In this document: in pieces, positions 441-54,354 of the stretch
How the letters are laid out: each line of letters starts with the position of its first letter
How positions within the stretch are numbered: the first letter of the stretch is position 1
Source of the DNA: Oceanospirillum beijerinckii DSM 7166
GTDB taxonomy: Bacteria > Pseudomonadota > Gammaproteobacteria > Pseudomonadales > Halomonadaceae
Assembly: GCF_000422425.1 (NCBI RefSeq)
Contig: NZ_AULT01000023.1
Coordinates: forward strand, 1-64,000
Reading direction: 5' to 3'
DNA length: 64,000 nt
The notes under the pieces: model-generated
Told to the model about the DNA's origin: nothing
Seen by the model: only the letters and a program-made list of their open reading frames with translations
Databases searched by the model: none
Program-made: the position numbers and the translations under genes

Positions 441-1445
441 TTACTTGGAGAAGTGAGGGATAATATGCTTACCGTACTTCTCTACGATGCTTTCTTCATC
501 GCCGCTATCCAGGTAGATATTGAACTGAGTGGTCCCCACTTCTTCCAGCTTCTTCAGCTTGGCGATATGGTCTTCAACGGAGCCCAGTACACAGAACTCA
601 TCAACGATATCTTCAGTGATAAAGTCCAGGTATGGGTTATCACTCTGACCATGTTTGGAGTAATCATAACCCTGACGGTTTTTGATATAAGAGGTCAGAC
701 TTTCCGGCACCTGGCCGCTGTTATCACCGTATTTCTCAACGATATCTGCAACGTGGTTACCGACCATCGCCGGGAACCATTTGGTCGCTTCCAGACAACG
801 CTCTTTAGTACCGAAGTAAGCCGGAGCAGACGCGATCACTTCGTAGTTGCTCATATCACGGCCCGCTTCGTTACCGGCTGCAATCGCCTGATCTTTAAAC
901 CACTGAATCAGTGTTGGAGAAGCAATCTGCAGTACCACACCATCGCCCACTTCCCCCGCGGTTTGCAGTGCTTTAGGGCCGTAAGCACCGATATAAACCG
1001 GCAGCTCATAACCCTCTGCCCAAGGGAATTTCACCGGTGCCGGACATTCGCCGTACTGAACTTCCTCACCGCGTACCATCGCCTTAACCTTGGTGGTAAA
1101 TTCAGCAACACGGGCCAGATTAGCCGGTTTTTTACCCAGCACACGGACACCACTGTCGCCACGCCCCAGACCGATATGGAAACGGCCATTACTCTGTAGC
1201 GCCAGGCTACCAAACAGACTTGCTGCCTGAGACCAATCACGGGCATTAGGGTGTGTTACACAAGGGCCAAAGCTGATCTTAGAGGTATGTTCCATACACA
1301 TGGCAATGGCTGGATAACACTCACGCCACAGTACATGGGAATCATAGAACCAACAGTGGGTGAAACCCGCTTCTTCTGCTTGTTTTGCCAGGTTACGTGC
1401 GCGCTCTGGGCTGATAAAGCCTTTAAAAGTAATACCAAAATCCAT
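441..1445 (-). CDS. LLM-class F420-dependent oxidoreductase (Mer-like, CPS_4043-type)
   Basis: The product is 334 residues, a luciferase-like (beta/alpha)8 enzyme related to methylene-tetrahydromethanopterin reductase. Visible family signatures are GLGRGDSGVRVLG near residues 92-104 and PVYIGAYGPKALQTAGE near 149-165, which form the F420-side glycine-rich region. It resembles the family I remember as TIGR03842 (CPS_4043, Colwellia). An AGGAGA ribosome site lies 6 bases before the ATG. It is the last gene of an operon with F420 biosynthesis and npdG, so use of F420H2 is well supported by context. The substrate is not known. Because the operon carries RutR-like operators and the regulon includes dihydropyrimidinase, I infer a cyclic ureide or pyrimidine C=C reductase. 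A 185-bp gap with tandem repeats separates it from npdG, so it may have extra regulation. Confidence 0.85.
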   Translation of the reverse strand: MDFGITFKGFISPERARNLAKQAEEAGFTHCWFYDSHVLWRECYPAIAMCMEHTSKISFGPCVTHPNARDWSQAASLFGSLALQSNGRFHIGLGRGDSGVRVLGKKPANLARVAEFTTKVKAMVRGEEVQYGECPAPVKFPWAEGYELPVYIGAYGPKALQTAGEVGDGVVLQIASPTLIQWFKDQAIAAGNEAGRDMSNYEVIASAPAYFGTKERCLEATKWFPAMVGNHVADIVEKYGDNSGQVPESLTSYIKNRQGYDYSKHGQSDNPYLDFITEDIVDEFCVLGSVEDHIAKLKKLEEVGTTQFNIYLDSGDEESIVEKYGKHIIPHFSK

Positions 1446-1566
1446 CGTTATTCTCCTAGTCAGGACTCTTTTGTTGTTATAAACAGTAGGTGTTATAAGT
1501 GGCTGCTGTTATGGATTAACAGTCTTTATGTATCGAACGTTTATAAATCGAGCTTTTATGAATCGC

Positions 1567-1622
1567 GCTCTATAAATAAAGAGCGATAAATAGAGCTCTA
1601 TAAATAGAAAGCGATAAATAGC
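1567..1622. repeat. Two 28-bp tandem repeats between npdG and the LLM gene
   Basis: Units at 1567-1594 and 1595-1622 match at 25 of 28 positions. Each starts GCTCTATAAATA and carries GCGATAAATAG near its end. Weaker, more diverged copies seem to continue toward 1535. The repeats are AT-rich and sit inside the operon, 120 bp before the LLM start. They may be a regulatory or mRNA-structure element, or a simple slippage product. Confidence 0.75.
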
Positions 1623-1630
1623 GTTTGCTA

Positions 1631-2299
1631 CTAATGGTCAGGTGCCCAGATCTTCACACCGGCGTGTGAGAAAGGGACCTTCTTGGAAATATTCAAACGG
1701 ATCAGAATCGGCGTTATCGCCTCAATGCAGCGGGCATTCACCGCAGGGCCTGCGTTATAGGCCTTCACATCCAGGCTTTCGATCAGTTCAATGACTTTTT
1801 CTTTCGCGGCCAGGTCATTGCCACACACCAGAATGTCGCAGTTGATGGCATGGCCTAGCTTGTTCAGCGTGGCGGCAGACACATTATGCAGAGCACCGAC
1901 CACAGGAATCTCATCACCCAGTAAGACTTGGGCTTCTTCTGTCGCCGAGCCTGCTTCAGGCATCGCCACTGCTTTAGGATCGCCATCGGCCAGAGGTACC
2001 ACGATATCCACCAGAATTTTGCCGTTCAGCTCCGGTTTAATCGCTTCCAGCGTGGCGTTATGGGCGGCGTAAGGTACAGCCAGAATCACAATCTCATCCG
2101 CTGCAGCCGTAGCAGCCAGGTTATCGACACCGCTGATAACACCGGTCACACCTTGCTGTTGCTCATTCAGTTCCTGAGCGATCTGTGCGGCGCGCTCGCC
2201 ATCACGGGAACCTAACGCCACATCAACACCTGCAGCCGCAAATCTCAGGGCTAAGCCTTTTCCTTGTGGGCCTGTCCCACCCAAAATAGCAATTTTCAT
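1631..2299 (-). CDS. npdG: F420H2:NADP+ oxidoreductase (NADPH-dependent F420 reductase)
   Basis: The protein is 222 residues with an N-terminal Rossmann fold, [17 protein letters not shown] at residues 4-20, followed by GSRDGERA, the NADP-phosphate binding pattern of the Fno/NpdG family. These enzymes transfer hydride between NADP(H) and F420 in the cytoplasm; here it would supply F420H2 from NADPH. The ATG overlaps the cofE stop codon by 4 bp (ATGA), indicating translational coupling. Its place between F420 biosynthesis genes and an F420-type LLM enzyme fits a role in cofactor recycling. The length is normal for the family. The reaction direction in vivo is inferred. Confidence 0.9.
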
Positions 2300-52764: not shown

Positions 52765-52770
52765 CTTGAT

Positions 52771-52795
52771 CGCCTCCTACAACACGTAGGAGGCG
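52771..52795 (+). other. Stable hairpin between permease and dihydropyrimidinase genes
   Basis: Perfect 10-bp arms CGCCTCCTAC and GTAGGAGGCG with a 5-base loop, starting 6 bp after the permease stop. No T tract follows, so it is better read as an mRNA-stability or processing element than a terminator. Confidence 0.65.
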
Positions 52796-52911
52796 AAGCA
52801 ACCCCACGGATCTATATAAAAAGTCACTATCAACGTTCTATACCAACAACAAATTCAATACGTTAGAGCAGATTCTGCTTTGGCAATTCTACCGAATTGA
52901 GGAGACAAGCC

Positions 52912-54354
52912 ATGTCTATTGTTATCCGAAATGGCACCATTGTTAACGCTGATCACACCTTTCAGGCCGACGTGTATTGTGAAGAAGGCAAAATCGTCGC
53001 GATTGGGCAGAATCTTGACGTACCCTCCACGGCAGAAGTCGTGGATGCCTCCGGCCAGTACGTAATGCCGGGCGGTATCGATCCCCACACTCATATGCAG
53101 CTGCCTTTTATGGGCACTGTCGCCAGCGATGATTTTTACACCGGCACCGCCGCAGGTCTGGCCGGGGGTAATACCACCATTATCGACTTTGTTATTCCCG
53201 CGCCAGGAGAGCCACTGTTAGAGGCATACAATAAATGGCGTGATTGGGCAGAAAAATCCGCTTCCGATTACAGCTTCCATGTCGCCATCACCTGGTGGGA
53301 TGAATCCGTGCATGCGGATATGGAAACTCTGGTGAAAGAACACGGCGTCAACAGCTTTAAGCACTTTATGGCCTACAAAAACGCCATCATGGCCGATGAT
53401 GAAGTGTTGGTGAAAAGCTTCCGGCGCTGTATGGAGCTGGGTGCTATGCCAACGGTACACGCAGAGAATGGCGAACTGGTGTTCCAGCTGCAGCAAGAGA
53501 TGCTGAACAAAGGCATTACCGGCCCGGAAGGTCACCCGCTGTCCCGTCCACCCATTGTTGAAGGTGAAGCGGCCAACCGCGCGATCCAGATTGCTCAGGT
53601 GATGGATGTCCCCATCTACCTAGTACACGTCTCCTGTAAAGAATCCGTTGATGCCATTACCCGCGCCCGTAACGATGGCCAACGGGTTTACGGCGAAGTG
53701 CTGGCCGGTCACCTTTGTATTGACGACAGTGTGTACCGTAATGAAGACTTCGAGTTTGCTGCCGCTCACGTCATGAGTCCACCGTTCCGTCCGAAGGAAC
53801 ACCAAAACGCACTGTGGAAAGGTCTGCAAGGTGGTAATCTCCAGACCACAGCAACGGACCACTGCGCCTTCTGTGCCGAGCAAAAAGCTGCCGGTAAAGA
53901 TGACTTTACCAAGATTCCTAACGGCACTGCCGGTGTCGAAGATCGTATGGCCGTACTGTGGGATGAAGGCGTGAACACCGGTAAGCTGACCATGAACGAG
54001 TTTGTTTCCGCCACCTCCACCAATGCTGCCAAGATCTTTAATATCTACCCGCAGAAAGGCTCCATTTCTGAAGGTGCCGACGCCGATATCGTCGTGTGGG
54101 ACCCAGAGGGTACGCGTACTATCTCCGCGAAAACGCACCATCAGAATGTGGATTTCAATATCTTTGAAGGCAGAACAGTAAAAGGCATTCCATCCCACAC
54201 CATCAGCCGAGGCAAAGTAGTGTGGGCCAATGGCGAGTTAAAAGCGGTACAGGGTGCCGGTCGTTATGTGGATCGCCCAGCGTTTAACCCGGTGTTTGAA
54301 GCCTTAAACAAACAGGCTGAACTTAATGAACCTACTGCGGTGAAACGAGGTTAA
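52912..54354 (+). CDS. hydA: Dihydropyrimidinase / D-hydantoinase
   Basis: 480 residues, amidohydrolase superfamily, opening the ring of dihydrouracil, dihydrothymine or 5-substituted hydantoins. All metal ligands of D-hydantoinases are present: His59 and His61 in [10 protein letters not shown], carboxylated Lys150 in [10 protein letters not shown], His183 in TVHAENGE, His239 in YLVHVSCKE, Asp316 in TATDHCAF. The start is ATG 52912, 7 bases after GGAG; an earlier in-frame start would run over it. It is downstream of the NCS1 permease and upstream of a terminator at 54403. Confidence 0.93.

Follow-up and report, generated by a model that had tools for sequence, protein, structure and literature searches.

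A candidate F420-dependent, uracil-controlled system for pyrimidine catabolism in Oceanospirillum beijerinckii

The window analysed here (64,000 nucleotides, bases 1–64000 of contig C17, which has 104,116 bases, in the 5.33-Mb, 99% complete genome of Oceanospirillum beijerinckii DSM 7166) encodes the biosynthesis of the redox cofactor F420 together with enzymes of pyrimidine catabolism, and a preliminary description made from its letters had joined these genes into a candidate F420-dependent system for the breakdown of pyrimidines or hydantoins. Profile models confirmed all genes named in that description at their places (scores below are in bits against the curated cut-off). They form two blocks, 441–7744 and 44121–54354, and the 36 kb separating them hold unrelated genes, e.g. 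a BCCT transporter, a type I-F CRISPR-Cas system and a TRAP transporter. The first block, on the minus strand, contains cofH (FO synthase subunit, 4955–6268; TIGR03551: 524 vs 374), cofD (2-phospho-L-lactate transferase, 3864–4958; TIGR01819: 272 vs 257), cofC (guanylyltransferase, 3200–3829; TIGR03552: 148 vs 105), cofE (F420-0:glutamate ligase, 2296–3189; TIGR01916: 263 vs 181), npdG (NADPH:F420 reductase, 1631–2299; TIGR01915: 196 vs 150) and a gene for a luciferase-like protein, hereafter LLM (441–1445; TIGR03842: 488 vs 295), which we propose to be an F420H2-dependent dihydropyrimidine dehydrogenase and which is the genome's only TIGR03842 copy above the cut-off. A RutR-like TetR regulator is encoded at 7052–7744, also on the minus strand. 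Just 3' of the LLM gene a consensus scan found a terminator-like hairpin (382–412, minus strand, 12 pairs with a T-rich tail), probably the end of the operon (16 such sites were found in 8 kb vs 7.3 in shuffled sequences).

The second block comprises cofG, the other FO synthase subunit (44121–45251, plus strand; TIGR03550: 479 vs 213), a CoA-acylating (methyl)malonate-semialdehyde dehydrogenase, MMSDH (46669–48207, minus strand; TIGR01722: 678 vs 449), an omega-aminotransferase of the AptA family, proposed to be a beta-alanine/beta-aminoisobutyrate transaminase (48515–49858, minus strand; NF052567: 732 vs 500), a LysR regulator (50075–51043, plus strand; PF00126/PF03466), an NCS1 nucleobase/ureide permease (51265–52764, plus strand) and a dihydropyrimidinase (52897–54354, plus strand; TIGR02033: 624 vs 393), the best PDB match of which is a D-hydantoinase/dihydropyrimidinase (5e5c, 788 bits) and the real start of which is probably the ATG five codons in. 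The complete F420 set, NpdG, the F420-type LLM, the dihydropyrimidinase, the transaminase and MmsA of the preliminary description thus all score above their profile cut-offs; its NCS1 importer does so for PF02133 (318 vs 23.5) but falls under the cut-off of TIGR00800 (326 of 353). The preliminary description had also advised a genome search for beta-ureidopropionase. Contig C12 encodes a 420-aa amidase (TIGR01879: 440 vs 204) matching beta-alanine synthases and an N-carbamoyl-beta-alanine amidohydrolase (8c46 in the PDB, 483 bits, where three broadly named amidase/deacylase/peptidase entries rank higher), and followed by pntAA, pntAB and pntB. This amidase is a probable beta-ureidopropionase. 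The carbamoylase/pntAB part of the system is on a contig other than that of the window.

To place the LLM in its genomic context, 84,980 genomes were scanned, which gave 150 relatives, the best 80 of which were kept as loci (neighbours were counted at E ≤ 1e-8 over at least 45% of the query); the nearest relatives belong to Amphritea and Marinobacterium. The genes cofH, cofD, cofC, cofE and npdG occur with the LLM gene in 77 of the 80 loci and cofG in 71, with the LLM as the last gene of the cof operon in most relatives. A RutR-like regulator is present in 74 loci, the amidase in 60, NCS1 in 41, dihydropyrimidinase in 26, aptA in 17 and MMSDH in 15 (13 at ≥38% identity), while preA, preT and rutA occur in none of the 80. 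At least one of the genes for amidase, dihydropyrimidinase, AptA, MMSDH or NCS1 is found at ≥38% identity in 69 loci, or in 71 if weak aldehyde-dehydrogenase matches are included. Clusters that combine the LLM, F420 and pyrimidine genes occur in both Gamma- and Alphaproteobacteria. The pntAB transhydrogenase genes accompany 21 of the 80 loci, and since the gammaproteobacterial and rhodobacterial versions have a similarity of only about 42%, this association probably arose more than once. The annotation of a Leisingera plasmid shows hydA, a Zn-dependent hydrolase, an aminotransferase, pntB and pntA, with divergent cofGHDCE, npdG, LLM and TetR genes. In loci L031–L035 the first gene detected behind the LLM is that for the amidase; the sizes of the two contig ends, of C17 and C12, would fit the spacing in L031–L034 with a sequencing break between them, the gap in L035 being shorter. 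In the same five loci cofG, as in the window, does not adjoin cofH.

In some loci the LLM stands apart from the cof genes. In L087 it starts 40 bp behind the dihydropyrimidinase gene, with NCS1, RutR-like and amidase genes around it and no cof genes; L055 has LLM, RutR-like, amidase and aptA genes, and in L167 (genome G112) NCS1, LLM, MMSDH and amidase genes are consecutive. The contigs of L052 and L055 begin just before the LLM gene. In the genomes of L087, L055, L167 and L052 the single cofD is located on a different contig, as part of a cof set with another gene order. The LLM in L087, L055 and L167 therefore belongs with the pyrimidine pathway and not only with the cof operon. This second type of proteobacterial cof cluster, in genomes with the LLM elsewhere, is represented by L182, L183 and L184 (genomes G213, G212 and G232), where most genes are about 40–50% identical to those of the window; the order is npdG-cofE-cofD-cofC-cofG-cofH in two of the three and is split in the third. 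The genome of L081 (G229, Aestuariicella) has two cofD genes above the cut-off, one at the LLM cluster and one elsewhere, possibly belonging to a dedicated second F420 pathway. In Ruegeria (G236) one cluster starts with preT-preA and another with cofGHDCE-npdG-LLM, and each continues with rutR (minus strand), amidase (ureB, plus strand) and dihydropyrimidinase (plus strand), as if the module for the first step had been exchanged.

The gene identified in the preliminary description as a RutR-like regulator carries RutR domains (PF08362, 167 bits) and aligns with E. coli RutR over residues 23–227 of 230 (169 bits with the PDB RutR entry), but stays under both RutR equivalog cut-offs (TIGR03613: 205 of 368; NF011584: 190 of 230), and is for this reason called RutR-like here. 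According to PMC10891134, the RutR operator is a 16-bp palindrome, and uracil is contacted in the RutR structure by W77, Y97 (via water), W167, Q171 and Q179 of the other subunit. All five residues are kept in the regulator of the window. They are likewise kept in 73 of 75 regulators (the one from the window and the best-scoring one from each of the 74 loci), the other two having L77; a second copy in L038, outside the 75, has F97. The DNA-contacting K52 is replaced by T in 12 regulators, all among L095–L110, and the corresponding 12 loci lack an exact operator of the type described below, while L102 and L104–L106 keep both K52 and the exact operator; this agrees with regulator and operator forming a pair. 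The 12 loci, which are from Rhodobacterales, may have a shifted operator.

The preliminary description reported no operator sites. A scan with letters which we take to be the RutR consensus found, at up to 3 mismatches, 14 matches in the window vs 3.3 expected (0 of 100 shuffled sequences reach 14). Seven of them precede genes of the system and six lie elsewhere (7254, 12848, 18621, 18892, 36099 and 61806); these six and a doubtful one at 43747 are not claimed as operators. The refined 16-bp palindrome, TTKACC-N4-GGTMAA, gives 7 sites in the window vs 0.30 expected, a partly circular figure, as the pattern was drawn from the same sites. Two boxes precede cofH (6602–6617 and 6635–6650, both exact, 33 bp apart), one with a single mismatch lies directly 5' of the regulator gene (7747–7762), so that autoregulation is predicted, one is 5' of cofG (44014–44029, exact, with TTGACC and, after 17 nt, TATATT by eye), one lies between aptA and the LysR gene (50005–50020, one mismatch) and two precede NCS1 (51121–51136, one mismatch, and 51172–51187, exact). 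MMSDH has no box of its own that we could find, and a Tsx-like gene (45533–46267) without an operator site was left out of the regulon. Genome-wide, 51 sites with up to 3 mismatches were found vs 23 for a reversed control; 8 of the sites have no more than 2 mismatches, and 6 of these 8 fall in the window, which is 1.2% of the genome. The seventh, at position 516 of C12, begins 39 bp 5' of the first ATG of the amidase gene, which has in all two exact boxes (at 488 and 516); owing to these boxes and the pnt genes behind, the probable beta-ureidopropionase and the proton-driven NAD(P) transhydrogenase are assigned to the regulon. The eighth is an exact operator-like palindrome, TTTACCTTAAGGTAAA, at G000:C27:50752 (L009), between an sdhB-like gene and a sucA-like gene, which it precedes (both named by eye from their translations); it was left out of the regulon as a probable chance match, a link to the TCA cycle being the alternative. 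One type of operator is thus common to the F420 genes, cofG, NCS1/dihydropyrimidinase, aptA/lysR, the regulator and the carbamoylase.

The same pattern recurs in the 80 related loci (1.53 Mb), where exact sites number 93 vs 2 for the reversed pattern, sites with up to one mismatch 166 vs 21 and sites with up to two mismatches 400 vs 286, counts that are not independent because the loci are related. Most exact sites precede cofG/cofH, the amidase gene (ureB), NCS1 or the regulator gene. Forty pairs of sites lie closer together than 60 bp (with no more than one mismatch in a site), and 32 of them have a spacing of 32–35 bp; on the locus strand, TTGACC starts the first box in 27 of the 40 and TTTACC the second in 31. 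Upstream of cofH in the window, the TTGACC of the first box (6650–6645) is a possible -35 element of the cofH operon, and a possible -10 hexamer, TAGTAT (6621–6626, minus strand, consensus scan), lies 18 nt from it, between the two boxes and upstream of the box at 6602–6617. A leader of about 330 nt (6268–6602) lies between the operator pair and cofH, similar in size to that in L031–L035; Rfam at gathering thresholds reports CRISPR repeats only and no leader family.

The preliminary description had noted that PreTA is absent from the window, and a search of the whole genome extends this, as no PreA-like match is above the cut-off (best 46 vs 335) and RutA gives 0 matches. Among 195 genomes of the order that are at least 95% complete, TIGR03842 is above the cut-off in 10, PreA in 15, dihydropyrimidinase in 22 and cofD in 51 (52 at E ≤ 1e-30). 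All 10 LLM genomes have cofD; dihydropyrimidinase is found in 9 of the 10 LLM genomes and in 9 of the 15 PreA genomes, i.e. one LLM genome and six PreA genomes have none above the cut-off. The 22 dihydropyrimidinase genomes divide into 9 with LLM only, 9 with PreA only, none with both and 4 with neither (Fisher tests, uncorrected for relatedness: LLM with dihydropyrimidinase 5e-9, LLM with cofD 9e-7, exclusion of LLM and PreA among the 22 genomes 0.0014). The four genomes with neither (G109, G040, G099 and G194) have lower dihydropyrimidinase scores (530–565 bits), and each of the 17 genomes at or above 577 bits has exactly one of LLM and PreA, a division made after seeing the data. In families f1, f5, f24 and f32 cofD and LLM occur in exactly the same genomes; cofD without LLM in other families means that F420 has other uses there. 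The 49 LLM genomes behind 50 of the 80 loci (without L058) all have cofD (48 above the cut-off), PreA is present in 6 and RutA in none. At least two genomes are common to this set and the order sample (G087 = G204 and G124 = G208, with identical cofD places), and a sum of the two cofD counts would include these genomes twice. One Colwellia and five Rhodobacterales make up the six genomes with both PreA and LLM; all six have a PreTA-type cluster at another place, and LLM and PreA are therefore not strictly exclusive. In the 43 genomes without PreA and RutA the LLM is the only visible first step.

A structure model of the LLM is closest in fold to F420-dependent hydride transferases of the LLM family. 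The top 15 VIA rows are all F420 enzymes (Mer, Adf and FGD), as are Foldseek ranks 1–18, and 15 F420-enzyme entries outrank every FMN monooxygenase listed. As the reduction of the pyrimidine is the vacant step of an otherwise complete pathway, the LLM is the only unplaced redox enzyme of the regulon, and the genes for its cofactor, for NpdG and for the transhydrogenase have the same type of operator, we think it likely, with considerable confidence, that the LLM takes the place of PreTA as a dihydropyrimidine dehydrogenase dependent on F420H2, and that the F420 pathway is under the control of uracil. Uracil and/or thymine would enter via NCS1; PntAB, a proton-driven transhydrogenase, would keep NADPH high and NpdG would pass hydride from NADPH to F420, whereupon the LLM, a single TIM-barrel of the luciferase-like family, would reduce the 5,6-double bond of the pyrimidine with F420H2. 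Dihydropyrimidinase and N-carbamoyl-beta-alanine amidohydrolase would then open the ring to ammonia, CO2 and a beta-amino acid, the carbon of which AptA and MMSDH would take to acetyl- or propionyl-CoA. The RutR-like repressor would occupy the box pair in the F420 operon promoter until uracil lifts it, so that the cofactor pathway is switched on on demand. The sequences themselves show the gene set, the shared operators, the kept uracil site, the clustering, the lack of PreA above the cut-off and of RutA, and the presence of cofD in all LLM genomes tested; which reaction the LLM carries out, that it uses F420, which way the electrons flow, that the regulator represses and which substrate is chosen (uracil, thymine or both) we infer. 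The F420-dependent pyrimidine system of the preliminary description gains support from predictions that could be checked in the genomes (no PreA or RutA, operators, clustering, non-overlap of LLM and PreA), and its suggestion that the cofactor is made under a uracil-responsive regulator is backed by the shared operators and the predicted uracil site. More broadly, and with somewhat less assurance, F420 is probably an inducible cofactor with a single client in several proteobacterial lineages, the uracil-derepressed module (biosynthesis, PntAB/NpdG feed and reductase) being able to replace PreTA and having spread horizontally; the Leisingera plasmid, which carries these genes together, is cited for such spread.

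Several observations weigh against this interpretation. The literature searched contains no assay of the TIGR03842 family. The genome statistics carry no correction for relatedness and the regulator scores below the RutR equivalogs, as noted above, and L052, L055 and L080 have a K52 regulator yet no operator-like site. Across this 8 kb, matches to promoter elements do not exceed chance (3 vs 9.8 in shuffled sequences), so that the cofH promoter is read from its position. Eleven of the 80 loci have no pyrimidine-catabolic gene at ≥38% identity, although several of the contigs end close by; on a Paracoccus alcaliphilus plasmid (L179, 6587–23839) cofGHDCE-npdG-LLM is followed by genes for an ABC transporter and formate dehydrogenase-N, and the annotation names no pyrimidine gene within 12 kb. 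In L166 (10059–12652, genome G089) a divergent TIGR03842 LLM (43% identity) lies directly before MMSDH and behind rnf genes, and that genome has no dihydropyrimidinase above the cut-off; this divergent LLM may have a different substrate. The top NCBIfam name of the C12 amidase is an allantoate amidohydrolase subfamily (691 vs 452), and the role of the LLM may differ slightly in the six genomes in which a PreA cluster is present as well.

A division of labour, which the six genomes with both a PreTA cluster and the LLM suggest, would suit an LLM that reduces a special pyrimidine or cyclic ureide (thymine only, 5-substituted uracils or hydantoins) and not uracil generally, an explanation that we regard as unlikely. 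The name of the amidase subfamily would also suit it, as would the best equivalog match of NCS1, an allantoin permease model (far under the cut-off, 262 of 620), and the putative F420-dependent yanthine (ureide) reductase of the luciferase family proposed in Chloroflexota (PMC12507026). On the other hand, the regulator keeps all uracil contacts, and for 43 of the 49 LLM genomes the LLM is the sole visible first step. Hydantoins give alpha-amino acids, whereas the transaminase and MMSDH downstream suit beta-amino acids; for this reason, and in view of the uracil site of the regulator, the hydantoin alternative of the preliminary description is disfavoured.

Were the LLM instead to act at another step, e.g. 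as an F420-dependent alcohol or aldehyde dehydrogenase on malonate semialdehyde or 3-hydroxypropionate, the first step would be left without an enzyme in most of these genomes, while the final steps are accounted for by MMSDH and AptA and the LLM of L087 follows the dihydropyrimidinase gene by 40 bp; this we consider quite improbable. That the LLM is a RutA-like ring-opening oxygenase using FMN and O2 is very improbable indeed, given the ranking of 15 F420-enzyme entries above every FMN monooxygenase listed, the lack of a RutB-like gene near any of the 80 LLM genes and the presence of cofD in every LLM genome tested (10 of 10 and 49 of 49, in samples that overlap by at least two). The genes downstream need a dihydropyrimidine, not ureidoacrylate. 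The position of the LLM as the last cof operon gene in most relatives could finally mean that it is a mere passenger of the F420 operon and that pyrimidine use rests on an unseen enzyme; the loci L087, L055 and L167, where the LLM keeps company with pyrimidine genes while the only cofD is on another contig in another gene order, and families f1, f5, f24 and f32, where cofD and LLM share exactly the same genomes, make the chances of this next to negligible.

Among the known systems close to that of the window is the PreTA/PydA pathway (E. coli preTA, L111; Ruegeria, L175), which likewise has a dihydropyrimidinase, a RutR-like regulator and an N-carbamoyl-beta-alanine amidohydrolase (a probable one here), with the same downstream gene order in one genome; the difference is that an F420-type LLM, the whole F420 pathway and NpdG stand here in place of PreT-PreA, which works with NADH, FAD/FMN and iron-sulphur centres. 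The Rut pathway (E. coli rutABCDEFG, L112) likewise has a uracil-responsive repressor of the RutR type and a luciferase-fold enzyme acting on the pyrimidine, but RutA is an FMN/O2 oxygenase, the products differ, the genome lacks RutA, and no RutB was found near the related loci. From Mer (1z69 and 8qpl in the PDB) the LLM differs in its score, under the Mer equivalog cut-off (TIGR03555: 117 of 349), and in its pyrimidine-catabolism context, and position 6 of Mer (E6Q mutant in entry 8qq8) is T in the LLM. The nearest precedent is the putative yanthine reductase of Chloroflexota uricolytic clusters (PMC12507026), where an F420 enzyme of the luciferase family was likewise proposed, from gene neighbourhood, to replace an NADH/ferredoxin ureide reductase; that enzyme, itself putative, belongs to a purine pathway of another phylum, and the accessible part of the paper notes no regulatory link with F420 synthesis. 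In the open-access literature no paper with CPS_4043 or TIGR03842 was found and none linking F420 and RutR, and terms for F420 and pyrimidine reduction returned, besides the yanthine paper, only apparently unrelated papers (judged by the start of the abstract); the notes to the TIGR03842 model may refer to genome context. Thus no description of an F420-dependent, uracil-controlled pyrimidine system was found in this literature, subscription papers and preprints being outside the search. If our interpretation is true, it would supply a physiological reason why these Proteobacteria make F420, namely the supply of F420H2 for the initial step of pyrimidine breakdown. A dihydropyrimidine dehydrogenase free of iron-sulphur centres would be added, TIGR03842, a family with no more than this name, would gain a function, and the pathway of a redox cofactor would be seen to be induced by the substrate of the enzyme that it serves. 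The interpretation also leads to predictions of the marine and halophilic bacteria in which the nitrogen of uracil and thymine is recycled via F420.

Two further features of the window concern other systems. A CRISPR array with 34 repeats (19312–21310; Rfam CRISPR-DR4) adjoins cas genes, among them those for Csy3 (22009–23049) and a Cas2-Cas3 fusion (25450–28917), which mark the system as type I-F. The region 54816–61074 contains two aconitase genes on opposite strands, one of the Aconitase/Aconitase_C type and the other with AcnB domains.

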